The notes beneath the pieces are model-generated. The model did no database searches. It was not told the origin of the DNA and saw nothing but the letters and a program-made list of their open reading frames with translations. From the NCBI RefSeq assembly GCF_000003815.2, contig NC_049987.1, positions 6,336,083-6,400,082 of the forward strand: a DNA stretch of 64,000 bases, given 5' to 3'. How positions within the stretch are numbered: the first letter of the stretch is position 1; every line of letters starts with the position of its first letter. The DNA is from Branchiostoma floridae (taxonomy: Eukaryota > Chordata > Leptocardii > Amphioxiformes > Branchiostomatidae). This document shows positions 127 to 48,832 of this stretch, in pieces. Both the position numbers and the translations under genes were made by a program.

Positions 127-212
127 ATGATGCAGAAGAGACGGAATGCCGATATAGGCAAGCTACGACGGCCGCTGAAGAGGAATAAAATCACCGAGAG
201 CATCTATGGCAG
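127..212 (+). CDS. MACO1: Macoilin exon 1 (N-terminal basic segment)
   Basis: Encodes a Lys/Arg-rich cytosolic N terminus of 28 residues followed by a split Ser codon (AG|C). The donor GTAGGG follows at 213. Upstream bases 1-126 are probably 5'UTR and promoter-proximal DNA; I see no clear TATA box there. The gene is therefore almost complete at its 5' end in this window, and the next coding exon is 13.1 kb downstream. Confidence 0.88.
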
Positions 213-12200: not shown

Positions 12201-12976
12201 AAGTTGAAAAGATATTTTTGCGTTTACATCACTGTGATAATGTCCAACGCACACTTGTGCCACGGTGGAAGTGCTATTCTGCATGATCGGAATAAAGATG
12301 AGATGACGATCTGATTCATCATGTTTGTTCTCAACATTATTAAGGACTTATTCGTGTCTGATTCTGGGAGGCATGAAAGATATGGAGAAAATTATGGTCA
12401 AGGCATCTAGTTGTTGGTGTATTATGTTTATACATGTATCATAGTGATGTTTATACAATGTATCATAGTCATGGACATTGTTATTTATTGATTAATAATT
12501 AAAAGATAAAGCTATAGCTTCCCACTGCAGTATAGACTGCTACTAAACCTACTAGTAATTGATGACTTGACTTTTAATAAGTTTTATGAGACCCATGAAT
12601 GAAATGCAAAACCATATTGGTTTGAATGTTATGTAACCAGAGTCAGGTTGTTGTTGTTGTAGCACCATACATGTAGATGGAAAGATAGAATAATAGATTG
12701 ATATAAACTAACTAATGTTTTGTTTTTGTTTGATTATAATACAACATTCTTATACCAGTGAATTGCATACATGTTTTCTATCTGTATGTGTCTGTAAATT
12801 CTGCCATTTCTAAGTGCTGTTTATTTGTTTGTTTGCAGCACAGCATTCCTGTACCTGAAGTGTCTGTGTGTGTGTGTGTGTGTGTTTATCTGTATATCAT
12901 GTGTCTGTAAAGTCTACCATCTCTGATTACTGTTTGTTTATTTGTTTGTGTGAAGCACAACATTCCTGTACCTGAA

Positions 12977-13022
<46 letters not shown>

Positions 13023-16000
13023 ATCTGTATGTGTCTGTAAAGTCTTCCATCTCTGATTACTGTTTGTTTATTTGTTTGTGTGAAGCACAACATTCCTGTA
13101 CCTGAAGTGTCTGTGTATGTGTGTGTGTGCATCTGTATGTCACTATGTGTATGTAAAGTCTTCCATCTCTGATTACTGACTGTGTGTTTATTTGTTTATG
13201 TGTAGCACAACATTCCTGTACCTGAAGTGTCTGTGTGTGTGTATGTGTGTGTGTGCATCTGTATGTGTATGTAAAGTCTACCATCTCTGATTGCTGTTTG
13301 TTTATTTGTTTGTTTATTTGTAGCACAACATTCCTGTACCTGAAGTTCCTGTTGGTGTGGGGTCTGGTGATGCTGGCAGACTTCATCCTGGAGTTCCGCT
13401 TCGAGTACCTCTGGCCGTTCTGGCTGCTCCTACGCAGCGTCTACGACTCCTTCAAGTACCAAGGACTGGTGAGGCACTGCTTCAGTATTGTCTGGAAATC
13501 AGGGCCGTTGTTGATTTTCATTGTTGTTAAAATACATTTTTAACAGTTTCAATTTCATGTCATGAAGTTAAGATTTTTTGGGACGGATAGGGTACAATTT
13601 TTTCCGGTCCCAACAAGCAAATTTCCATCTCAAGACGGAGGGATGGGTTCTGGAGACAGCCCTGCTGTAAATGTACATCATACCAGTTTCTGAATCAGTA
13701 TAGCCAGTATAATGGCTGTTTGGAGTAGTAACATTATACCAGCTTCACTTCAAAAGTAAGCTTTGTGATTAGTATCCTTTTTCCTTTACATGGTATTGAT
13801 CTTGATCATTGTAAATAATTGTGTATTTGTGCTTTTTTTCCAGGCATTTTCAGTATTCTTTGTTTGTGTTGCCTTCACATCGGACATGATCTGCCTGCTG
13901 TTCATCCCTGTACACTGGCTGTTCTTCGCTGCCAGCACGTACGTCTGGGTACAGTACGTCTGGCATACAGGTGAGAGCGACCTCTGACCCTTAACCTACT
14001 GCCCTCTGACCCCAACCTGTCACCCTTTCTCGTTTCCCATAAAGACATGAAACAAGGACATATTCAACATACAACTACAAAATAGTTTGACTTCGATTTT
14101 AATTTTGAATCAGGTGCTAAGAGAAATTTGTCATTTCCAAAAGTAGTGATGGCTTTTTGTTCACTTCTTGCAAATATATTTCATATTGTGAAGACAGATG
14201 ATAAACAGTCACTCAGTGTCTCTTTGATGATAAAATTGTTGATCAGCTTTTTTTACTGTTATCTTAAGAATAAACTTTTTATGAAAAGCCAGCTTTCTTT
14301 GCAATTGCTTTCATGTAGAGAAATTTCCATGCTTCTTTTCCCCCAACACAACAAGGGATCTATCTACCGATGGTGTAGCTATTATAACTCTTTAACATTT
14401 TGATCAGTTCTTGAACTATAATCCTAGCTTTCTTTTTAATTGCTCTGGAAATAGATAAATTTTCATGCTTCCTTTCCCCCAACACAACAAGGGATCTATC
14501 TACCGATGGTGTAGCTATTATAACTCTTTAACATTTTGATCAGTTCTTTAACTATAATCCTAGCTTTCTTTTCAATTACTCTGGAAATAGGTACATTTTC
14601 ATGCTTCCCTTCCCTCCCACAGAACGAGGGATCTGTCTGCCGACAGTCTCGCTATGGCTCTTGTTTGTCTACATCGAGGCGTCGGTGAGATTGAAGGACC
14701 TCGGAAAAGGATTCCACGTAGATCTGTGTCGACCATTTGCAGCACATTGGTAACTTATTTTCTTTTCTCTACATTTGTCCAAACTGTTGTTTTACACTAC
14801 TTTGAATGAGCATGTCAGGAATGCTATATAACATCAATCCTTTAAAACTACCCAGGAACCAAATTGGTTTCAGAAAATTTGGTGAAAGATGTAAGTTTTT
14901 TTGTTGTTGTTTTTTTTGGTCAGCCAAGGACCCATAGGTTACTTGCATGCACTGCTGTATATTATTCAAATTAGATATCCAATTGTTGTGCTGTAAATTT
15001 TTGGGATAAATTCCATCCCCTTTATGCAACTTACTCATCCCTGTTATGCAGCTTCAGCTTTTTAATGTAAGATGAAGCAGCTTTGAATCTTTTGATGAAA
15101 AATGCCTCAGTCCTCAAAAATTTGTGAATGCATAATAATAATGTTTTCATTTCCTGTCTGGCATTCTGACGTCCTTGTACCCTTCCAAGCTTCAGACAAT
15201 TGTAAATTGATGTTTCAAGGTGTGTCCACCGAAAAGGCCTTTGGTACCTAACAATGATACAGTCCAACCTGTTGAAGTGACCATCTTTACATAAGGACCA
15301 CCTGGCCAATATAATCCCTTCCTATATAATTGACACCAGCACCAAGAAATAATTGGTCTATTGTGACCTGTCCATATAGGCCAGATTGTGACCCCCAGTC
15401 TCGTCTCAGATAGTTTTGACTGTATATGTGTGTATATACAAGTAAGCCATCAAACTATGTTGTTGTCATGCAGTGCTGGAAAGACTTTGCAATTTGTGAT
15501 TCAAAATACCTAGTCTATAGATGCCGTTACTGATGCCAGATTGCAAGTTTATTTTTGCAGTCTCAAACAATATGTCTGCACATTTTGGGTTCCAGGCGTG
15601 TCTTTCCAGCACTGCATAATTTTTACATGAAATGTGTAAATTCATGAATGGTTAGCTCACCAGAACAAAGGGACAAAGTGTGGCCATACAAGTTCTTCAC
15701 AGCATTTTCACCGATTTTCTCTGCCTTCACAGTATTGGCTATCCAATGGTCACACTTGGCTTTGGGGTCAAAAGCTACATATCATATCGGATGAGACTCC
15801 GAAAGCAGAAAGATGTAGCGAAAGAAAACGAGTTTTACATGCAGCTGTTGCAGCAAGCGCTACCGCCTGAGATGCAACAGAAAAATATTTATTCTGGTAA
15901 CGACACAAAAGGTAAGGTTTTATTCTTTCGTAACTTTCAATGAAAGCCATGGAGTTTGAAAATCATACTAAAAATGCTCCATTTGGAAGAGAAATGTGCA

Positions 16001-19000
16001 TTTTACTATTTTTAGGAATTTTATTCAATGGATGTTTGTAGTTCCATGGATTTTTTTTGTCCAATGGTTGTATGGCTAAAATAACTGAAATGCTATTTTT
16101 CACTCTTGTTTCGGAATAAAGCTACAATAAAATGTGTTCCTTGAAGGAAGCGAGTCTTCTATGAAAGAGTAATGATTTTTACTGGATTAGTATAGAAATC
16201 ATTAAGATGGGATAAGTGAATTCTGTCGCATAAATCATACATGGGTCCTAGATAAGCTTTGCTATACATACAGACCCTTTTTTAAATAAACCTATTTCAA
16301 ACAGAAGTATGCAAAAATGTATGGCCTATCTATGATTCATTGATGTGATAATTGTATTTTCCCATGTTTTCCATAGCGTTGCCGGCAGCCAAATCAGGCG
16401 ATGAAGTTGTTGCAAACGGCGGTCCAAAGAAACTTGCCGACAAGAAGCTGCCAAACGGCGACATAGATGAAGATGAGTTAGAATACATGGAGAACAGCCT
16501 AAAGCGCAGCAACCACAGGTAAACCCTTGAACCTGTAGGCTTTGGCCTTAGCTTGGTAATAGTTACTCCAGCAACTGGATAAAATTTGAAAACAGATGTT
16601 TCAGACAGCATCTGATTTCAAAGTTGCATGTTCACTGTTATCTTGCATAGAGTTTGTCTGCCAGTTGACAAGGGCCGCTTTAATCATCAATGTCTTGTAC
16701 ATCTGTATATCTTATTACCTGCATGTTATTGACAAACCTTCATTGATATAACTTGTTGTATTGACCCACAAACATTATTCTTTCATTGTTTTCTGTTCTG
16801 TGCTGCTACTTCTCTCTCCCTCATTGTTAGGAATCCCAGTTTCTCTCCACCCTTGGCAGTGTCGTTGTGTCTAATAGTATATGATTGTTAATCACATATT
16901 TGGTATTCTTTGAGCTAACTTACAGGTAAGATGTTAAGCTCTTTGATGGCAACATTTTTTGCGGGTTGCATGGGGGGGTGTTTTGAGATCAATCAGTGAC
17001 TGTAGTACTCTGAACTGCTAAAATAAACCATGAATTACGTCATTTCCAAACCAGCGACTATGGTGGCAGCAGAGAGAACTTATCAGACGGGAAAAATAAA
17101 CCGGGCAGCGGGAGCTCCACGCCGCAGAATAAAGTGAAAAACGGGAGCGTCGTCAAGGACGCGACGTCCCAAGCACAGAAGGCCAAAAAGAACGTAGGAA
17201 AGAGCGATCAGAAGGGAGCAGACGTCACAGCAAGCTCCCTTCATGCATCGGTGGATAAAACAGCCAAGTAAGCTCTCTTTTTGCTTAAATATTTTGTGGT
17301 GTTGAATTGATTAGCATCATTGTTACATTTAGTTTGAAATTTAAGCTAAGAACCCATAGGCACCTACATGTATACCTGTATACAGACTTCAGAGATCAAA
17401 ATGTATTATCTAGCAAATACCTGCTTAGAATCCAGAAAAAAAGTGACACTTAATATATGTTTTGTTTTTGCAAACGATTTATAAAGAATCTGGTCAACCA
17501 AGGCCCCATAGATAGCCTACTATATTTGTCTTTTTTCTGAATACATACTAGAGAGTGATATCAAGTGGCTGGAAATACACTAATGTAATAAGGAAGAAGC
17601 AGATCAGAACTAAAATTTTATTTACTTATCCATACTGTAGAGTTGTATAAAGAGGCAGGAGACACACACATGTAATGCAGAAAAATCATAAATAAAATCC
17701 TTTTTATTTTCCCAGACTGGAGAGTGATATGAAGAGGCTGGAGGCTTCTGAAGGATAGAGAATGTGTAATGCAGGAAAAGTAAATCTATAACTTTATTTT
17801 TCTTTCTTTAGACTGGAGAGTGATATGAAGAGGCTGGAGGCATCTGAAGGATAGAGAATGTGCAAAGTGTAATGAAGAAAAGGCAGAACTAAAATCTTTT
17901 TATTTCTTTAGACTGGAGAGTGATATGAAGAGGCTGAAGGCGGACCTGCAGGCGAGCCGACAGATGGAGCTGGACCTCCGCTCACACATCAACTCCCTCA
18001 TGCAGGAGGACCGCATCACCAAGTCTGAGCTCAGCCAGCTGCGCATGGATAACGAGAGCCTGCAGTCAAAGTACGCCAGCTTGTTTGCTTTGTTTCGTAT
18101 AGCCTGTAGCAGCGTTGTAGCCAGTGCCCTTCCTTCCATTCTTTGATGGAATTTTGCTGCTGAGCTGGAGACGGAAAAATGTTTTTGCCCATTCCATGTG
18201 TGATGGACTGAAATCAATGTGTGAAGACATGTCTCCCTTGTGTAATTTTTCACCAAAACAGATTGCCATTGAATAGCTTAGTCTCCCAGCAAAATTTTTA
18301 CCTCAAAATGCAGGAAATGCCCTTTTCAGAGGGTCTAGACCTCAACATTTTCCGGGGGAGCCGTTGCGTCTTATGATTCAAAATCGAGGGGACGGAAAAT
18401 GATTACAGGCTGGCTACAACCCTGGCCTGTAGACTACCTTTAGACATGACACACCAGTTTTGTACAGTAGGTACAGTCAAAGTACGCAAACTAATTTGGT
18501 TTGTTTTGTATAGCCTGTAAAGTACCTTTAGACGTGACACACCAGTTTTTACATTAAGTACTGTCAAAGTAAGGCAACTTGTTTGGTTTGTTTTGTATAG
18601 TCTGTAGACTACCTTTAGATATGACACACCAGTTTTGTACTGAGAATAAAGTGTAAAATTTGGGCCTGTAAGTGATTCAAAACTAGATTGTTTAAAATCT
18701 AATTCAGCAAATTCAACCTCGAGAGCACTTTGCCGCCTTTTGGCAGTTTATCATTTACAATATCTCAAGCAGCCAATAAATCAGTGTCAATGGTCACCTG
18801 AAACTGATTTTACTGAGATTGCCATTACATTTACAGGTTGCACTTTTGTGTACTGTTTGCAACAGTAATGTCAACAAACACAAAAAGTGATGTCAACCGT
18901 CATTAATTGTACATCAAATATTAGATACACACTGTAAGATGCATTTTGTAGTGCCCAAGTTGTGCACTGTCCCTGTACCCTGCTTGAGATTATTTCAAAG

Positions 19001-22000
19001 CCCAAGGGTGTCCAAACCTCTGTGACATGTTAACCTGGCTTCTATCCCCCTGATGCTAGGGAATAATCACGACACACACGTAGTAGAACCATGTGTATTG
19101 ACAGTGAGTCCTTTGACCAGACAAAAAAACCCCTCCTCAGGTCCCAGTAGGCGTGCCTGGACTGTTCCATTTGTGAGGGGGGAAACTAAACTATAAGTAA
19201 TCTAACAACATGATCCGTTTTGGCGCAGGTTGCACAACTTGGTGACAGCGCGGCAGAAGGACAAGGAGAACCTCATCGCCACGGAGAAAAAGCTGCGAGC
19301 CGAGCAGGAGAACAAGGCTGCTCTGGAGAAGCAGCTCCGCGACGAGAGGAAGAAAAAACAGGCCGAGGAGATGGCAGCAGCCAGAGCCCTCGCTGCAGCG
19401 GCTGCTAACGCCTCCAGGCAAGTACTGTAGACTTAGGGAGCTGCCCTACAACTTTGCATCTTACTGTGATTAACATACTGGTTACCCAAACCTTTTCAAC
19501 TCCTTACTTTGTGATGAAGGGATGGAAACTTGTTAATAATAATGAACAGATTTTGAAACTTTGCATGTCATAGCAACATCCCACACCTTGATATACTGCT
19601 GCTAGAAAGGGATGTTGTCTTTAGGATGCAACATTAAACTGTGGTCCACTGTTCATTGTACCCGTTGAGAAGAAATATCCGCCATAGATTCTATACTTCT
19701 GTCTTCTCTGCTACAACCAATGGGAGATTAGCTCAACTGTTCATGGAATAACTGTTCATTTGAGCTCAACTAGTTCACTTGACATAACCCTGAAGTTCAC
19801 ATTTTTTTTTTCTACTTTTCCCAACAGAGGGGAGTGTACTGAGGCCTGTAAGCAGCGGCATCGCGAGCTCGAGACAGAGGTGAAAAAGCTGCGGCACAAC
19901 TTGAAGCAGCGCGACGACCAGCTGGCCACAGCTGAGCTCGAGAAGAAGTCCATGCGGAACAAGGAGTCCCAGCAGGACACCGAGGTTCTTATTTAGCAGA
20001 ACATCTAGTTTTTATATCTTCGGATCTGTGGTGCACTTCTATACTCTTCCAAAAGGTGGTGCTGTGATCACGTCGCTGTGATCACGTTGATCCTACGTCT
20101 TCAGCAGGGCCCTGGGGTTAGCGGCTCCATGGCCGGTTAACATCATTTTCCGTTACAGAGAAACAATTGCAGTGGGCTAGCTTTTTCTTGGCCCAGGTTC
20201 ATCATATGCCATACTGGTATCTAGTTTTTATATTCTAGATGGTAGAAAGCTCTAGTGTTTATGAAAAACGGAGGGACCCTCTAGCAGATTGTTTAAAATC
20301 AGTTGTAAAGGGGGAGTAAAATGATTTCAATTTTTGGAACTGGTGATGTCTGCTTTGTTGTCAGGCTTAGGAAGTAGCTAAAAGGAGATGTTTGTATTTG
20401 AGAAACCTTGTCTGAAGGGAGCTGTAGGTTTTCATGTTAGGCTTTGTTGGAGAAATGGTTGAGGCACCTGGCCTGAAGTTGAATATGTTCTCTCCCCCGT
20501 AGGTTCGGATGTCAGCAATGTTGTCAAGCTTTGAAAGTAGCTAAGCTAAAACATTTATGTTGGATGACCCTGGCCTGAAGTTGAGTGTGTTTCTGTCCCC
20601 CGTAGGTTCTAATGTCAGCAATGTTGTCAGGCTTAGGAAGTAGCTAAATCTAAAACATCTATGTTTGAGGCACCTGTCCTGAAATTGAGTGTGTTTCTGG
20701 CCCCTGTAGGTTCTAATGTCAGCACTGTATTCAGGCTTTTGCAGGTAGCTAAGCTAAACATCTATGTTTGAGGCACCTGTCCTGAAGTTGAGTGTGTTTC
20801 TGTCCCCCATAGGTTCTAATGTTAACACTGTTCTCAGGCTTTGTAGGTAGCTAAGCTAAAACATCTATGTTCGAGGCACCTATCCTGAAGTTGACTGTGT
20901 TTCTGTCCCCCATAGGTTCTAATGTTAACACTGTTCTCAGGCTTCGTAGGTAGCTAAGCTAAAACATCTATGTTCGAGGCACCTGTCCTGAAGTTGACTG
21001 TGTTTCTGTCCCCCATAGGTTCTAATGTTAACACTGTTCTCAGGCTTTGTAGGTAGCTAAGCTAAAACATCTATGTTTGAGGCACCTGTCCTGAAGTTGA
21101 CTGTGTTTCTGTCCCCCATAGGTTCTAATGTTAACACTGTTCTCAGGCTTTGTAGGTAGCTAAGCTAAAACATCTATGTTTGAGGCACCTGTCCTGAAGT
21201 TGACTGTGTTTCTGTCCCCCATAGGTTCTAATGTTAACACTGTTCTCAGGCTTTGTAGGTAGCTAAGCTAAAACATCTATGTTTGAGGCACCTGGCCTGA
21301 AGTTGAGTGTGTTTCTGTCCCCCATAGGTTCTAATGTTAACACTGTTCTCAGGCTTCGTAGGTAGCTAAGCTAAAACATCTATGTTTGAGGCACCTGGCC
21401 TGAAGTTGAGTGTGTTTCTGTCCCCCATAGGTTCTAATGTTAACACTGTTCTCAGGCTTCGTAGGTAGCTAAGCTAAAACATCTATGTTTGAGGCACCTG
21501 GCCTGAAGTTGAGTGTGTTTCTGTCCCCCATAGGTTCTAATGTCAGCACTGTATTCAGGCTTTTGCAGGTAGCTAAGCTAAACATCTATGTTTGAGGCAC
21601 CTGGCCTGAAGTTGAGTGCGTTTCTGTCCCCCATAGGTTCTAATGTTAACACTGTTCTCAGGCTTCGTAGGTAGCTAAGCTAAAACATCTATGTTTGAGG
21701 CACCTGGCCTGAAGCTGAGCATTTTTCTTTCCCCCGTAGGTTCTGATGTCAGCGCTGAACGCCATGCAGGACAAAAACACCCACCTTGAGTCCAGCCTGA
21801 GCGCCGAGACGCGCCTCAAACTCGACCTGTTCTCCGCGCTCGGTGATGTCAAGAGGCAGCAGGAGATCGCACAAGGTGAGGCACGCTTTCCAGACAAGCT
21901 CTGAACAACCATCCTGGAGTGGAACTTGTTGCCACAGTAGGGTACACTTAAGCTAAGGGCACAACCCGCCGTACGTGCCATTTGTCTGTATGTTTTATTT

Positions 22001-23092
22001 TGGAGACCAAGTCCGCCACGTATTTCTGAAAAAATTCAGGCTGTACAGGGCAGGCGCGTCACCCCGTACTGGCTGCGTGCTCTAAAATCAGTTGGATTCC
22101 CTACAAGTTTGTACGGAGACGGTACTTACCACTTACGGATCCCAAAAGATTGCCCACGTTTTGGCACATAGACAAACGTACAGCGGGTTGTGCCCTTAGC
22201 TTAAGTGGTGTTGTATAGCACTTGTATTTGGATGAGCAAAACATGAGGTGAGACAGGTATTTCAGTATGATGGAACTTAGCGGCTGCTGTGCCACGTGCC
22301 TGCAAAGTGGTGTGTTACACCAAAGAGCGGTTAAACCTGCCATAAAGAGATACAGACAGTACCTGTGTTGAATTGTAGGGCCTAGGGGGAGGGGTTCAAA
22401 CCCTGGCTGATCTTACCAAAGAATAAGTCTAATTTGAGTGTCCTGTATGTTCCTGCAGCCCAACTGTTGCAGAAGCTTTTGATACTTATATTGATACTGG
22501 TAGGATGTGCTTGGAGATTGATAATTTGAGTGTCCTGTATGATAATTTGAGTGTCCTGTATGATAATTTGAGTGTCCTGTATGATAATTTGAGTGTCCTG
22601 TATGATAATTTGAGTGTCCTGTATGATAATTTGAGTGTCCTGTATGATAATTTGAGTGTCCTGTATGATAATTTGAGTGTCCTGTATGATAATTTGAATG
22701 TCCCTGTATGTCCCTGCAGCCCAGTTGCTTGAAATATTTCATAAATGTTGTCTTGATGACATATTTTGAGTGTCCTGTATGTTCCTGCAGCCCAACTGAT
22801 GCAGAAGGAACAGGAGGTGAAGGAGCTGAAGATGAAGATTGCCGAGCTGATGGCCCTCACGCCGGCCAGCGCCGACAGCACCATCACCGGCCTCGCCCCC
22901 TCCAGCTTCTCTCCCAAGTTCCGCCTGGGGCAGAGCAGCGACGACCCGCCCAGCCCGCAGCAGCTCTCGCCGGGCGGCGTGCTCGGGCTCAGCCAGAACT
23001 CCCTGGGGAACTCCCTGGCCCACCTGCACAGCCAGATGAGCTCCAGCCTCGACCCCAACGCTGCCATCTACACCCCAAAGAGCCAGCATTAA
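127..23092 (+). CDS. MACO1: Macoilin, complete, 12 coding exons
   Basis: Macoilin is a neuronal endoplasmic-reticulum membrane protein; its C. elegans orthologue tunes neuronal excitability (family knowledge). Coding exons: 127-212, 13324-13468, 13844-13970, 14623-14749, 15733-15911, 16377-16518, 17055-17267, 17912-18070, 19229-19417, 19828-19984, 21740-21875, 22791-23092 (stop TAA 23090-23092). The joined frame is 1962 nt, 653 residues; the human protein is about 664. I recalled the human sequence and matched it along the whole length: KRRNAD and RRPLKRN in exon 1, LEFRFEYLWPFWL in exon 2, MRLRKQK in exon 5, KADLQASRQ in exon 8, LDPNA near the C terminus. Phases agree at every junction. Two ATGs lie in tandem (127 and 130); either could start. 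Oddities are an apparent GC donor after exon 9, a weak GTTCTT donor after exon 10, and tandem decoy splice sites at six exon edges. Confidence 0.95.
3785..4158. promoter_or_regulatory. Cluster of five CACGTG E-boxes in intron 1
   Basis: Perfect CACGTG palindromes lie at 3785-3790, 3852-3857, 3875-3880, 3913-3918 and 4153-4158. Several are next to a repeated GACAGGTGCT block (around 3803 and 3891; a diverged GACAAGTGCT near 4169). The units look like two or three diverged copies of a ~90 bp repeat. CACGTG is bound by bHLH and bHLH-Zip factors. Function as an enhancer is inference only; the cluster could simply reflect the repeat. Confidence 0.35.
4990..5345. repeat. Interspersed repeat rich in GGGCAAGT / ACTTGCCC
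   Basis: The motif GGGCAAGT and its reverse complement, plus GGACAAGT, recur about eight times in ~330 bp, including a near-palindrome at 5089-5108. The arrangement resembles a short inverted-repeat or SINE-like element. I do not recognise the family and see no coding capacity. Confidence 0.45.
7395..7934. mobile_element. Inverted-repeat element (MITE-like), 540 bp
   Basis: A perfect 33-bp terminal inverted repeat pairs 7395-7427 with 7902-7934 (ends AGGCCACAGCAAG / CTTGCTGTGGCCT). There is also an internal inverted repeat around GTAAAAGTGACAC (about 7624-7712). No transposase is encoded. I could not identify a clean target-site duplication. It is probably a non-autonomous DNA transposon in macoilin intron 1. 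Confidence 0.65.
8005..8102. repeat. Local direct and inverted repeat of GTGCGTGCTC
   Basis: The block GCGTGCTCSGAGTCATGT occurs twice (around 8050 and 8087), and its complement GAGCACGCAC occurs near 8019, so the segment can fold on itself. No gene is associated. It may be the end of an old mobile element. Confidence 0.3.
10837..11016 (+). CDS. Possible small secreted peptide (unrecognised), inside macoilin intron 1
   Basis: The ORF from ATG 10837 (context AAAACC before the ATG; an upstream in-frame ATG lies at 10816) has a signal-peptide-like start: a basic n-region (MSLRSS), a hydrophobic core (FILAVLVLVF), then VESKP, where cleavage would be plausible. The remaining ~37 residues contain three Cys (in HCF, ICD and NCPSA) and one NQT glycosylation sequon. 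A splice donor-like AG|GTATAA lies at 10993-10998, so the ORF could instead be a first coding exon. I recognise no family, and short hydrophobic ORFs arise by chance, so this is a candidate only. Confidence 0.22.
   Translation: MSLRSSFILAVLVLVFKVESKPLEIHCFHDLFEICDLLTFQNQTLLNMYLYSRYNCPSA
11874..12085. mobile_element. MITE copy 1 (TACTGTAAATGC termini)
   Basis: The element begins TACTGTAAATGC and ends GCATTTACAGTA. The interior is strongly palindromic, with recurring TTCGCGGT / ACCGCGAA blocks. A second copy of the family lies at 33085-33279. It has no coding capacity. TA at both ends fits insertion at a TA target. It is non-autonomous and probably mobilised by a DNA transposase encoded elsewhere. 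Confidence 0.75.
12781..13351 (+). repeat. Tandem array of exon-2 acceptor copies with GT microsatellites
   Basis: The block CATTCCTGTACCTGAAGT occurs at 12844, 12961, 13091, 13211 and 13329; the last is real macoilin exon 2. Each copy is preceded by the same T-rich intron segment (TTTATTTGTTTG) and an AG acceptor. The first four leave exon similarity after about 25 nt and run into (GT)n tracts (longest about 12983-13021). Spacing is 117-130 bp, varying with microsatellite length. The array therefore carries four decoy 3' splice sites. Confidence 0.85.
13324..15911 (+). CDS. MACO1: Macoilin exons 2-5: multipass membrane domain
   Basis: Four exons (13324-13468, 13844-13970, 14623-14749, 15733-15911) encode about residues 29-221. 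Hydrophobic stretches are visible near residues 31-50, 78-98, 99-116, 123-140 and 157-175, consistent with the ER multipass region of macoilin. The segment ends in the basic motif MRLRKQK and a helix containing NEFYMQLLQQALPPE, the best conserved block of the family. Donors are GTGAGG, GTGAGA, GTAACT and GTAAGG. The acceptors of exons 2 and 4 are each the last copy of a tandem array of similar acceptors. Confidence 0.93.
14283..14665 (+). repeat. Tandem array of exon-4 acceptor copies, 136-137 bp period
   Basis: GGGATCTRTCT occurs at 14355, 14491 and 14628; the last is inside true macoilin exon 4. The two upstream copies carry a degenerate version of the first ~40 nt of the exon (CTACCGATGGTGTAGCTAT instead of the coding sequence) and are nearly identical to each other. 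Their acceptor AGs appear lost (AACAAC in place of CAGAAC), so these decoys are probably dead. Confidence 0.8.
16377..17267 (+). CDS. MACO1: Macoilin exons 6-7: low-complexity linker
   Basis: Two exons (16377-16518 and 17055-17267) encode about residues 222-340. The segment is polar and rich in Lys, Gly, Ser and Asn, and contains ELEYMENSLK, corresponding to the EIEYMENH motif of vertebrate macoilin, and SRENLSDGK. This is the variable cytosolic linker between the membrane domain and the coiled coil. The frame is open through both exons and the phases match exons 5 and 8. Sequence conservation is weak here, as expected for this part of the family. Confidence 0.88.
17541..17945 (+). repeat. 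Tandem array of exon-8 acceptor copies, 82-100 bp period
   Basis: Copies of ACTGGAGAGTGATATGAAGA start at 17547, 17634 (both decayed), 17716, 17812 and 17912, the last being true exon 8. The copies at 17716 and 17812 keep a good CAG or TAG acceptor and about 30 nt of exon, then reach an in-frame TAG (17756-17758 in the first). A donor-like GTAAAT at 17780 could turn the 17716 copy into a 64-nt poison exon. Confidence 0.85.
17912..23092 (+). CDS. MACO1: Macoilin exons 8-12: coiled-coil C-terminal half
   Basis: Five exons (17912-18070, 19229-19417, 19828-19984, 21740-21875, 22791-23092) encode about residues 340-653. Heptad-rich helices run through exons 8-11 (for example KRLKADLQASRQMELDLRS and LSAETRLKLDLFSALGD). 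The last exon gives a short helix (EVKELKMKIAELMAL) and then a Ser/Pro/Gly/Leu-rich tail ending SLDPNAAIYTPKSQH. Exon 9 ends AG and is followed by GCAAGT, giving the family sequence SRGECTE when joined to exon 10. Exon 10 ends at GAG followed by GTTCTT, a poor donor. Confidence 0.9.
18429..18640 (+). repeat. Tandem copies of the exon-8 donor region, ~86 bp period
   Basis: The end of exon 8 reads GTCAAA|GTACGC with the donor at 18071. Copies of this junction recur at GT 18482 (GTCAAA|GTACGC) and 18569 (GTCAAA|GTAAGG), each followed by the same TTTGGTTTGTTTTGTATAG intron segment and a TACCTTTAGA-ATGACACACCAG block (18429, 18515, 18601). This is the only junction in the gene where a donor, not an acceptor, is multiplied. 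Confidence 0.75.
20023..20225. repeat. Interspersed repeat, copy in macoilin intron 10
   Basis: This segment (beginning GGATCTGTGGTGCACTTCT and ending GCCATACTGGTATCT) is clearly homologous to 26236-26430 and to the shorter copy at 26653-26765. The shared core includes GCTGTGATCACGTCG and GTCTTCAGCAGGGCCCT. It has no coding capacity and I do not recognise the family. Confidence 0.65.
20480..21765 (+). repeat. 13-unit tandem array of 3' splice sites ending at macoilin exon 11
   Basis: The junction CCCCCRTAG|GTTCTRATGT recurs with the first exon-like base at 20503, 20606, 20710, 20813, 20916, 21019, 21122, 21225, 21328, 21431, 21534, 21637 and 21740. The spacing is 103-104 bp throughout. The last unit is genuine exon 11. 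A further degenerate unit may begin near 20341. Each unit has a pyrimidine tract and AG acceptor in the same phase as exon 11. The decoys would encode VLM plus about ten residues and then stop (GGTAGCTAA). Confidence 0.93.
21945..22207. mobile_element. MITE-like inverted-repeat element in macoilin intron 11
   Basis: Ends CACTTAAGCTAAGGGCACAA and TTGTGCCCTTAGCTTAAGTG are inverted repeats of about 25-30 bp. The interior is 200 bp without coding capacity. Flanks GTAGGGTA and GTGTTGTA may be a decayed 8-bp duplication. It is probably a non-autonomous DNA transposon. Confidence 0.7.
22431..22806 (+). repeat. 21-bp minisatellite and exon-12 acceptor copies
   Basis: The unit GATAATTTGAGTGTCCTGTA (21 bp) repeats nine times from 22520 to about 22708. 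Three copies of the exon-12 junction flank or end it: CTGCAG|CCCAACTGTTGCAG at 22459, CTGCAG|CCCAGTTGCTTG at 22720, and the true exon at 22791 (CTGCAG|CCCAACTGATGCAG). The minisatellite unit itself is the intron sequence just upstream of the acceptor. Splicing to either decoy would soon meet a stop. Confidence 0.85.
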
Positions 23093-25640: not shown

Positions 25641-26235
25641 TATATCCCAGCTATTGGGAACAACAAGAAGACTTTTTGCGTATATTTCTTAAATCTCTTT
25701 CATGTTTCTATCCCGATTTAGCCAAAATTTGTCAATTTATTAGCTAATGTCCTCAATTAACTAAATTTCAATTTCCATGCTCAATAATTTTTTTCCTGCC
25801 CAGACGAGTTATTATGTGACCTGTCAGCATCTAAAGGGCCCAAACAGTATCCAATTGCATATCAATTCAATAGGATATAAAAACTCCAACAAGATTTCTC
25901 ATGTGTCACTGACGAGAAACAGCAGATATTGTTTGAAACATCTGACTGTTTCCAAAATCATGTCCAGTTGCTTGAGTAACTGCTTTTTTGGTGTATCTTA
26001 TTACCTGGATGTCTAATCTTCATCAAAGTATCCAATTGGCCCCTGGATCCTGTTTTAGCCCTTTTGATACTGTCAGCCATCGGTTAATCTGCTTGTTGGA
26101 GACCCTGTTGGGCCTTACTGTCGACCAGGTGGGCCTTGAGAACAGGTTGAGCCTTGCAGACTGGATGGGCCGTTTGGACCATCTCTTCCATCCCTACCGA
26201 GTGCTCTTGACAGACCGAGGAACCCTAGGCCTCTT

Positions 26236-26897
26236 GGATCTGTGGTGCACTTCTGCACTATCCCAAAAGGTGGCGCTGTGATCACGTCGCCAGTCTTCAG
26301 TTGATCCCACGCGTACGTCTTCAGCAGGGCCCTCGGGTTAGCGGATCCATGACAGGCTATCATTTTCTGTTACAGTGAATAACTAGCTACAGTGCAGTTA
26401 GGTTCATCATAGGCCATACTGTTATCTGATACAACTTAAATGATCTATAATGACTCAAAATCCAGTGAAAAGCGCATCGCCTACACCTGTGGTCTGCTCA
26501 CGCAAGTTGTACTTTGCTCATTCTGCTACCTTCGCTGATGTATTCTTTCTGGGTTGGCTGTTTATGAGTGTGGTGTGTGTGTGTGTATTGCGATGCATCA
26601 GTGTGTGTGAGTGTGTGTATTGCGATGCATCAGTGTGTGTGAGTGTGTGTATTCTCGGGTTAGCGGCTCCTTGGTCGGTTAACTAGGCAATCGTTTTCCG
26701 TTACACTAACTTACAGTGAACAGCTACAGTGGAGTCAGGTTCATCATAGGCCATACTGTTATCTGATACAACTTCAATGATCTATAATGACTCAAAATCC
26801 AGTGAAAACTTAAGCGCATCGCCTACACCTGCTCACGCAAGTTGTACTTTGCTCATTCTGTTACCTTCGCTGATGTATTCTTTCTGGGTTGGCTGTT
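26236..26897. repeat. Two further copies of the intron-10 repeat, tandemly arranged
   Basis: 26236-26430 matches 20023-20225. The second half of the unit plus following DNA (about 26335-26565) is then repeated at about 26653-26895 (shared blocks TAGGCCATACTGTTATCTGA, GACTCAAAATCCAGTGAAAA, CACGCAAGTTGTACTTTGCT). A GT-rich minisatellite separates the two. Confidence 0.7.
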
Positions 26898-46100: not shown

Positions 46101-48832
46101 AATGCAGCTCTCTAGAGAAGGCCAAGAACAGGCTCGCCGGTGAGGTCGAGGACCTCATGATCGACGTTGAGCGGGCTAACGCCGCGGCAGCCCAGCTGGA
46201 AAAGAGGCAGCGTCTAATTGACAAGCAGATCGCCGAGTGGAAGACCAAGTGCGAAGACATCACTATCGAGCTGGAGACATGTACTAAGGAAGCCCGTTCC
46301 TACGCCAACGAGTTGTACAAGCTGAAGGGACAATACGAAGAGACTCTGGAGACCCTGGAAACACTGAAGAAGGAAAACAAGACTTTGCACGGTAAGTTGT
46401 TGGAGATCATCTATAGTCCTATAGTAAACTTTGAAAATGTCTATTTGATAAGTGTATTCAATGACAGGGGATGAATAGGAATTTGAACTATTGCATTGTG
46501 AGAGTGCTACTTCAGTCTGCTTTGTATCTTATTATAGACGAAATCCGTGATCTGTCCGATCAACTTGGCGAGGGCGGCAAGAACGTCCACGAGCTGGAAA
46601 AGGCCAAGAAGCGCCTGGAGGTAGAGAAGGAGGAACTGCAGACCGCCCTCGAGGAGGCAGAGGGCGCACTGGAAGTTGAGGAGGGCAAGGTTCTGCGTGT
46701 CCAGCTCGAGTTGTCTCAGCTCAAGGCTGACATCGACCGCAGGCTGGCCGAGAAAGATGAGGAGTTCGAGAACACTCGGTAAGTGTATTCTTCTTAAATA
46801 TCTAAATCTAATAGTCAACAAGGTCGTACGGAAATTTCTACAACTTAAGGCTTCCTTTATTTTGAAAGGTTTGTTAAAAGCCCCATTCTTTTCTTTGTAG
46901 TAAGAACCACCAGAGGGCCTTGGATGCATTGCAGACTACCCTGGATGTAGAAGTCAAGGGACGAAATGAGGCCGTTAGGAATAAGAAGAAGCTGGAGGCC
47001 GATGTGAATGAGGTTGAGGCTGCTCTGGAAAACGCCACCAAGGCCAACAACGAGGCCAGGAAGACCATCAACAAGCTCCAGAACCAGATCCAAGAAGTCC
47101 AAACTCAAATTGACGACGAACAGAGGGGACGTGAAGAGGCCCGTGAGCATCTTGCCATGGCTGAGCGTCGTTCCAGTATGCTCCAGGCTGAGCTCGAAGA
47201 GCTCCGCAATGCCCTGGACCAGGCCGAAAGGGCCCGCAAAATGGCAGAGTCAGAGCTTATGGAGTCTTCCGACCGCGTTGGTGAGCTGTCTGCACAGAAC
47301 TCCTCCCTGGCCGGCCAGAAGAGAAAGCTGGAGAGTGAGATCCAGACCCTGCAGGCTGAGCTGGACGAGGTTATGTCTGAGCACAGGCAGACCGAGGAGA
47401 AGGCAAAGAAGGCCATTGCTGATGTAAGTAAATCTTACAAACGTCATGCCCATTCTGTGATTTATTTACTCTCATTTGTACTTTCTGCTACATTTAAGGC
47501 GACTTGAGCTTGTCTTTTTCTTCTACAGGCCTCCCGCATCGCTGAAGACCTGCGTCAGGAGCAGGAACACACCGCTCACATCGANNNNNNNNNNNNNNNN
47601 NNNNNNNNNNNNNNNNNNNNNNNNNNNNNNNNNNNNNNNNNNNNNNNNNNNNNNNNNNNNNNNNNNNNNNNNNNNNNNNNNNNNCAGCACTATAATAATC
47701 CAGAGTTGTTGTTTGTCTTCTAATGTAGGTGCGTGACCTCGAGGCCGAGTTGGACTCTGAGACGAGGCGCCACCAGGAGACACTGAAGGGCCTGCGCAAG
47801 AACGAGCGTCGTCTCAAGGAGCTGGGCTTCCAGGCCGACGAGGACCGCAAGAAGGAGGAGCGCATGCAGGAGATGGTCGAGAAGCTGCAACTGAAGATCA
47901 AGACTTACAAGAGACAAGTGGAGGAGGCTGTACGTATATTTTCAATTTCTCTTATCTATTGTTAATCATTGATGCTGGGGTTAAACGACATCAAGTATGT
48001 ACCATAGTATAGGGTTTAGTCACTGTAACATTTGTCAATTCATGTACGTTTTTTCCGGCTATTGCAGGAGGAAACAGCCAACGTTAACCTGGCGAAGTGG
48101 CGCAAGACCCAGCACGATCTGGAGGATGCCCAGGAGAGAGCCGAGATGGCCGAGTCCGCCCTGGGCAAGATGCGCGCCCAGCACCGTTCTGCCGGGCCGA
48201 ATTTGGTAAGATAAGATAGCGAGTGGAATTTATTCCTGTGTATTTGTGCATTGTATATTTTTTAAAATATATTTTGCACTACTAGCTCCCTCCCTATATA
48301 TATATCGATTGGTTCTAATGCAATGTTTGTTTGTTTACATTACAGTAAACCCTTTGCAACGTTCCTTGCGAGGTGGCGTCATGAAGAGTAGGTTGATACC
48401 CTCTGATCCATAATCATAATAAGTGATAGTTGCATTTAATAGACACTGTCTCGCCACGATAGCCTCATACTTACCACATTGGGTTCAGCATTTAGACATG
48501 ACCAACGTAGGTAGGTAGGTGAAATAGCGCTCAACTTAGCATCATCATTACCATCACCTGTGTAACGCTGAACTAGAGTTTTAGCACTCATATTGAAGTG
48601 CTCATACAAATAGCTTAGTCGTTAAAAAAATCTTCAAAGAATCTGTTGCCATCACGGGAGATGATGGTGCCCTCCTTATAGTCTAGAGTTTCAAATAGCG
48701 ACCTATATTGACAAACTTTTTAATCCTTATTTTATATAAGTATTGCCTATGCTCGATACACAGTTACCTTTAATATCTCCTACATCATTCTAACAACTAA
48801 AATTATGATCTATTTCACAGGGCAGAGAGTAA
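34482..48832 (+). CDS. Striated-muscle myosin II heavy chain, gene 1 of tandem pair
   Basis: This is the thick-filament motor: an actin-activated ATPase head, a light-chain-binding neck and a long coiled-coil rod. Coding exons are numbered 2-27 (exon 1 is non-coding). All motor landmarks are present: GESGAGKT (P-loop), NNNSSRF (switch 1), DIAGFE (switch 2), and the SH1/SH2 helix in [14 protein letters not shown]. Exons through 23 give 1766 codons. Exon 24 enters a 100-N gap, then exons 25-27 complete a protein of about 1,940 residues, normal for the family, ending PNLGRE. The start ATG has a good context and is shared with gene 2. A second copy of exon 5 may provide isoforms. Which muscle expresses it cannot be told from sequence. 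Confidence 0.96.
35260..35377. mobile_element. Foldback MITE with 10-bp target-site duplication
   Basis: A ~98-bp hairpin element (35270-35367) has inverted repeats of over 40 bp each arm (AGCCTGAGTACCATCC / GGATGGTACCCAGGCT; TACCGGGGCTCCTTACACTC and complement). The 10-mer TGTAATTGTT flanks both sides (35260-35269 and 35368-35377). A duplication of this length is typical of Mutator-like elements. It lies in intron 2 of myosin gene 1. Confidence 0.75.
37025..37202. mobile_element. Inverted-repeat element in myosin gene 1 intron 3
   Basis: A perfect 28-bp inverted repeat pairs 37025-37052 with 37175-37202 (TCTCCAAGCAGATCCTACGG and complement). The interior contains further paired blocks (AGTATCAAAAGC / GCTTTTGATACT, and an inner GGCAGATCCTACAGTAGCC). 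Outer CATATG on both sides suggests the element may extend to about 37017-37213. It is non-coding. Confidence 0.7.
38645..38672 (+). CDS. Myosin gene 1 exon 5a (before P-loop)
   Basis: A 28-nt exon between CGAGCAG and GTAAGT. Read with the flanking split codons it gives [10 protein letters not shown], the conserved lead-in to GESGAGKT. Gene 2 has the matching exon at 55137-55164 ([10 protein letters not shown]). Confidence 0.85.
38769..38796 (+). CDS. Myosin gene 1 exon 5b, candidate mutually exclusive exon
   Basis: A second 28-nt segment in the same phase, bounded by GAGCAG and GTAAGT, encodes [10 protein letters not shown] with the same flanking codons. It lies 96 nt after exon 5a and matches it over ACCARTCYATSYTGATCACGTAAG. 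An upstream AG (38755-38756) would add four residues in frame. Inclusion of both exons would add 28 nt and shift the frame, so the two should be alternatives. No second copy is visible in gene 2. Confidence 0.65.
43333..48832 (+). CDS. Myosin gene 1 neck and coiled-coil rod (exons 16-27)
   Basis: Exons: 43333-43588, 43702-43848, 43950-44135, 44450-44536, 44868-45013, 45118-46391 (1274 nt), 46538-46778, 46901-47423, 47529 to gap, 47729-47929, 48068-48205, 48821-48832. Exon 16 holds the second IQ region and the [14 protein letters not shown] head-rod junction. The rest is an uninterrupted heptad pattern with alternating charge, as in filament-forming myosin rods. The last exon adds only GRE before TAA (48830-48832). 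If intron 26 is retained, the protein ends PNLVR instead. Confidence 0.93.
47585..47684. other. Assembly gap (100 N) inside myosin gene 1
   Basis: Exactly 100 N follow the codons for EHTAHI in exon 24. Compared with gene 2 and family length, the end of exon 24 (about 35-40 codons) and the start of the next intron are missing. The round gap size is probably a placeholder, not a measured length. Confidence 0.95.

Follow-up and report, generated by a model that had tools for sequence, protein, structure and literature searches.

In the lancelet Branchiostoma floridae, the gene for macoilin carries tandem arrays that run across the exon–intron boundary at six of its 22 splice edges. The gene lies in a 64,000-nucleotide stretch of contig NC_049987.1 (positions 6,336,083 to 6,400,082 of the forward strand; hereafter the window, in whose numbering positions are given). 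Tandem repeats spanning exon–intron boundaries are known from amphioxus as 'mirages', a name that citing papers credit to Canestro et al. 2002 (PMC3087553, PMC3902484). They have been described for Adh3 and globin (PMC3087553) and for PGBD5 (PMC3902484). An earlier note on this DNA had stated that no description of the pattern was known, and in this it was mistaken; the macoilin arrays are a remarkable case of something already described in lancelets, not a new kind. Probably, the six arrays are separate mirages, each a local, minisatellite-like tandem duplication whose unit happens to include a splice junction and which is tolerated. This degree of confidence applies to the explanation as a whole.

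Six arrays and their decoy junctions in macoilin

The arrays were identified by an edge test, in which 80 bases around each splice edge were aligned to the flanking 3 kb on both sides. In macoilin, the test covers the exon 1 donor, exons 2–11 at either edge and the exon 12 acceptor. For the exon 1 donor, position 218 was used, and its likely position, 212, falls among the bases tested. The null consists of 400 random comparisons, whose 99th percentile is 18.5 and whose highest score is 24. Local junction-spanning copies, with scores of 34–54, are found at the acceptors of exons 2, 4, 8, 11 and 12 and at the donor of exon 8; the remaining 16 edges score at most 18.5, the value reached by the exon 3 acceptor. 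An ungapped self-comparison of exons 2–12 (80% identity over 30 bases) yields the identical six edges and no exon middle. The six edges named in the earlier note are thereby borne out.

In the translation of the window, exons 2–12 (13324–23092) chain into a protein without internal stop, which matches the Pfam family Macoilin (PF09726) with an E value of 1.2e-220. Intron 1 is about 13 kb long. The likely coding part of exon 1 is an open reading frame that agrees in phase with exon 2 and that presumably resembles the macoilin N-terminus. Intron 9 appears to start with GC at 19418 (a GC-AG intron), and exon 10 ends in a weak donor, GAG/GTTCTT. The features are as follows; arrays were delimited by Tandem Repeats Finder (TRF) and the edge test, exons by translation of the exon chain.

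127..212, + strand: macoilin exon 1, coding part (likely)
12773..13361, + strand: tandem array ending in the exon 2 acceptor (true site 13324); decoys with AG at 12839, 12956, 13086 and 13206; a fifth, weaker decoy without AG at 12740, just upstream of the array span
13324..13468, + strand: macoilin exon 2 (PF09726)
14312..14643, + strand: 136-bp array ending in the exon 4 acceptor (true site 14623); decoys at 14350 and 14486, both AC, not AG
17542..17946, + strand: array ending in the exon 8 acceptor (true site 17912); decoys at 17547 and 17634 without AG, at 17716 and 17812 with AG and outscoring the true site
17912..18070, + strand: macoilin exon 8, with mirages at its acceptor and donor edges
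18061..18652, + strand: array starting at the exon 8 donor (true site 18071), split by an element resembling a miniature inverted-repeat transposable element (MITE); decoy donors at 18483 and 18570 (18482 and 18569 plus one, by base convention), both GT
18110..18424, no strand assigned: MITE-like element, 315 bp, inside the exon 8 donor array
20341..21762, + strand: 103-bp array ending in the exon 11 acceptor (true site 21740); 12 decoys, all with AG
21740..21875, + strand: macoilin exon 11
22425..22813, + strand: irregular array (including 21 bp x 9) ending in the exon 12 acceptor (true site 22791); decoys at 22459 and 22720, both with AG
22791..23092, + strand: macoilin exon 12, coding part up to the stop

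According to TRF, the periods of the arrays in order of position are 118–130, 136, 96, 87, 103 and 21 bp. The splice junction lies within the repeat unit, as the earlier note had it, but the 15–45 nucleotides (nt) of exon that it ascribed to each unit do not hold for the exon 8 donor, whose copies contain only about 8 nt of exon each. Similarly, there is an array at the exon 12 edge, but its 21-bp run does not itself span the junction; the copies that do are the decoys at 22459 and 22720. The unit of the exon 11 array has 12 matches in the assembly (513 Mb in 431 contigs searched), all of them at the macoilin locus.

These arrays comprise 25 acceptor and two donor decoys. AG or GT is kept in 22 of the 27, with AG absent from five of the acceptor decoys. 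At every array, the true site is the copy that is continuous with the body of the exon. On a simple weight matrix, true sites are not always the stronger ones: at the exon 8 acceptor, decoys score 6.1 and 7.6 against 3.8 for the true site; at the exon 8 donor, 4.8 and 8.3 against 4.8; the best decoy at exon 2 reaches 4.6 against 3.8, and at exon 12 decoy and true site are equal (2.7). Since decoys at exons 2, 8 and 12 score at least as high as the true site, local strength alone does not explain site choice. No decoy lies closer to the exon body than the true site, which makes exon definition the likely discriminator and the simplest alternative to local site strength.

This suggests how such arrays may arise and persist. 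After a duplication across an acceptor, the last copy would still carry the complete exon; after one across a donor, the first copy would. Such a duplication would thus be harmless while the spliceosome keeps to the copy that adjoins the exon body, and the array could subsequently grow and diverge within the intron, with exon definition picking the true site and the decoys staying unused. The suggestion in the earlier note that decoy sites are tolerated in this gene, and offer a natural experiment on splice-site choice, is a reasonable one.

The element in the exon 8 donor array has terminal inverted repeats that match at 14 of 15 bases and an 8-bp target duplication, GCCTGTAG; its ends look hAT-like. 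A genome search, in which 40 of 1744 first candidates were scored, gave 46 match rows including the element itself, and at least 21 other rows among these span positions 1–315 at 72–78% identity. Judged by sequence, it is a dispersed MITE-like family in this genome. The downstream decoys of exon 8 do not contain the element, so the duplication would predate the insertion.

The other large minisatellites of the window, at 26.57–27.50 kb, look intergenic, in line with the earlier note, which had placed them outside exons; no exon was seen there on reading. The array at 26.8 kb had been suspected of covering an exon edge, as its unit starts like a reverse-strand donor; no exon was seen on reading, and the candidate was rejected. 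Two stretches, at about 20020–20240 in macoilin intron 10 and at about 26230–26400 in intergenic DNA, were seen on reading to be alike (GGATCTGTGGTGCACTTCT...AAAAGGTGG), and are probably a dispersed element adjoining both minisatellites.

Mirages in other genes and the placement of arrays

The same anatomy is found in other genes of the assembly. Exons located by Pfam searches for the Cpn60_TCP1, Cullin and Sec1 families, chosen regardless of repeats, provided a sample of 34 stretches (three of them added later), 168 kb and 23 gene loci. Of 115 Pfam matches, 110 lie within the fetched DNA and give 220 edges; 17 without a convincing splice site were dropped, leaving 203. The positions of the edges come from a generic weight matrix rather than from transcripts, and exons outside the searched domains are unannotated.

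Local copies span 17 of the 203 edges; there are 10 such edges among the 100 acceptors and 7 among the 103 donors. Five were set aside: three represent a duplicated exon, one is a doubtful edge and one a 29-bp micro-array. This leaves 12 clean mirages (8 acceptors and 4 donors) in 7 of the 23 loci, with the copies on the intron side; a single cullin gene (C12) holds five of them. The compared copy keeps AG or GT in all 12. These counts suggest that mirages are common in this genome. The abstract listings and passages searched contained no genome-wide count or rate; mirages have been described from few genes, and 12 of 203 edges is a first rough rate from a small sample.

Macoilin is an outlier. 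Its 6 of 22 edges compare with 12 of 203 in the sample (Fisher P 0.004), or with 17 of 203 if all spanned edges are counted (P 0.015), P values that are post hoc because macoilin was picked for this property. The recurrence within one gene that was first remarked upon is thus real. None of the 69 edges in the window's two myosin heavy chain genes is spanned, and each of these genes has one array.

Other counts were also made. In an early one (score at least 25; 16 edges dropped), edges were positive in 16 of 184 cases, exon middles in 1 of 100 and non-exon positions in 47 of 1016; ungapped self-comparison put the corresponding figures at 17 of 184, 4 of 100 and 629 of 11335. A blastn metaprofile, with coverage of about 9.5% near acceptors versus about 4.6% at 200–600 bases into the intron, was replaced by the ungapped self-comparison; blastn appears to drop copies on near diagonals, and it missed a 41-bp TRF array in the second myosin gene.

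The strongest alternative to chance inclusion of a junction is that tandem duplications in the lancelet genome arise preferentially at exon edges, for example through slippage of the polymerase in the polypyrimidine tract or transcription-linked breaks, at up to about twice the rate elsewhere. We consider this a tentative and on balance doubtful proposal. Counted by position, the coverage of clean sample edges is 1.11 times that of non-exon positions (confidence interval (CI) from a gene bootstrap, 0.48–1.66), and for all spanned edges the ratio is 1.57 (CI 0.52–2.60); in macoilin, 6 of 21 edges are covered versus 33.7% of non-exon positions. Counted by array, the picture is more favourable. 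Whole-array placement with exon cores spared, which left out 9 of 50 arrays that cover exon cores, finds 9 of 41 arrays at edges versus 3.35 expected (P 0.004). The excess is smaller without the C12 cullin (5/35 versus 2.42, P 0.09) and for arrays detectable after exon masking (5/37 versus 2.74, P 0.13); looser limits on exon overlap give P values of 0.001 and 0.005 unmasked, and 0.08 and 0.23 masked. In single-unit placement with the set-aside arrays included, 15 of 50 are at edges versus 7.5 expected (P 0.003), or 8 of 40 versus 4.5 without the cullin (P 0.06); with both the set-aside arrays and the cullin removed, the figures are 7 of 39 versus 4.1 (P 0.10). In the clean mirages, anything between 13 and 81 nt of the unit is exon, and hence there is no fixed breakpoint at the junction, another point against seeding.

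Certain observations nevertheless weigh against mirages as indifferently placed and simply tolerated duplications. Without the set-aside arrays, 12 of 47 arrays are at edges versus 6.8 expected by single-unit placement (P 0.02), which indifferent placement leaves unexplained. All six macoilin arrays lie at edges versus 1.0–1.2 expected (P 1e-5 and 6e-5, post hoc). Finally, the true acceptor of macoilin exon 11 (7.3) outscores all 12 of its decoys (3.1–4.6), so site strength may help there.

The sample itself is less tidy in two respects. Coverage of exon cores is 6.7%, versus 5.3% for non-exon positions; leaving out matches of at least 400 bases, some of which read through stops, the core figure falls to 3.0% (194 of 6362 positions). 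One of the 12 clean cases, the donor at C8 24518920, has its copies inside a read-through match of at least 400 bases.

Taken together, an edge excess of up to two-fold is possible but not established, because one gene weighs heavily and because a conserved exon would keep copies at its edge recognisable for longer. Of the earlier suggestion that a mechanism seeds duplications at splice junctions, a hint of a 1.8-fold excess by array survives, weaker without the cullin or with exons masked; by position, edge coverage is close to that of non-exon DNA in the sample and in macoilin.

Some further features were seen in the same material. At C12:3656234-3656485, a cullin has two adjacent matches 132 bp apart (Pfam positions 535–570 and 537–570), with splice sites, a candidate duplicated exon. 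Myosin head matches are densely clustered in two places, C9:6.37-6.61 Mb and C5:18.08-18.18 Mb. The C9 cluster has the two myosin genes of the window at one of its ends, and the first of these genes contains a run of unknown bases at about 47530–47690 (X in the translation).

Less likely readings: decoy function, intron birth and assembly artefact

The decoys could also be functional, either as regulated tandem acceptors or cryptic exons, or as sinks for nonsense-mediated decay that tune expression; this we regard as unlikely. Splice signals are frequently kept, with AG or GT in 48 of 55 decoys when the 12 sample arrays (26 of 28) are added to macoilin. Moreover, all 25 acceptor decoys of macoilin, read on towards the true exon, meet an in-frame stop before it, as would be the case for a decay switch. 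However, both exon 4 decoys have lost AG, and the exon-derived part of the unit shows no excess conservation. Among the 10 arrays with at least two decoys, decoy-to-decoy identity is higher in the exon-derived than in the intron part in five, and lower in five. This gives no sign of selection and fits neutral decay; the selection on decoy sites that the earlier note had considered thus finds no support. For Adh3 and globin, the authors' own reverse-transcription polymerase chain reaction data suggest regular splicing (PMC3087553).

Very unlikely is the proposal that introns are being born here through duplication of AG/GT segments, the Rogers model put forward for amphioxus globins (PMC3087553). 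Like the macoilin arrays, the model involves a tandem duplication that holds splice signals, and intron gain by tandem genomic duplication has been described in potato (PMC4974935). Intron 10 of macoilin, much of which is filled by the array, starts with GTTCTTAT, and exon 11 with GTTCTGAT. However, a comparison of 40 bases from intron 10 and exon 11 scores 6.5, which 25% of 20000 random pairs match, so that the similarity is not significant and intron 10 was rejected as a newly born intron. With 8 bases upstream included the score is 9.0, for which no null is given, and intron 10 is the only intron compared. Unlike introns gained in this way, the macoilin copies sit in existing introns, with no new intron shown.

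That the arrays are artefacts of assembly is hardly credible: tandem repeats misassemble easily and copy number may be wrong, but the units differ from each other (TRF match 80–98%), each array has its own consensus and period, a dispersed element interrupts one of them, and other genes have the same anatomy.

Relation to described mirages and significance

Published mirages have units of 10–160 bp and occur at both acceptor and donor boundaries (PMC3087553). Those in globins belong to BflGb6 and BflGb9; B. floridae and B. lanceolatum are given as an earlier case, further loci are mentioned, and the mechanism is called unclear (PMC3087553). The PGBD5 paper reports repeats of 60 bp and 108 bp over splice sites and also names troponin C (PMC3902484), while the passages of PMC2206037 and PMC2632668 do not treat mirages. 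The macoilin arrays resemble these in that their units span the exon–intron boundary, in that both boundary types are represented (five acceptors and one donor, compared with eight and four in the sample), in unit length (87–136 bp plus the 21-bp run) and in that many, though not all, copies keep AG or GT. They differ in number: six occur in a single gene, and one array alone has 12 decoys, a larger set than the up to 6 units reported in two globin genes (PMC3087553). Macoilin arrays also share period, divergence and local origin with ordinary intronic minisatellites, from which they differ in having coding sequence and a splice junction within the unit.

With its 25 acceptor and two donor decoys, some of them as strong as the true sites on the simple matrix, macoilin is a natural test of how one splice-site copy is chosen over others that are nearly identical. 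If the edge excess is real, it would indicate that mutations at splice junctions have a source not recognised before. Should junctions indeed seed duplications, the genome would contain tens of thousands of ready decoy sites (extrapolated from 12 of 203 edges and the approximate gene number), with macoilin and one cullin among the hot genes, and these sites would be a standing source of material for new exons and introns.

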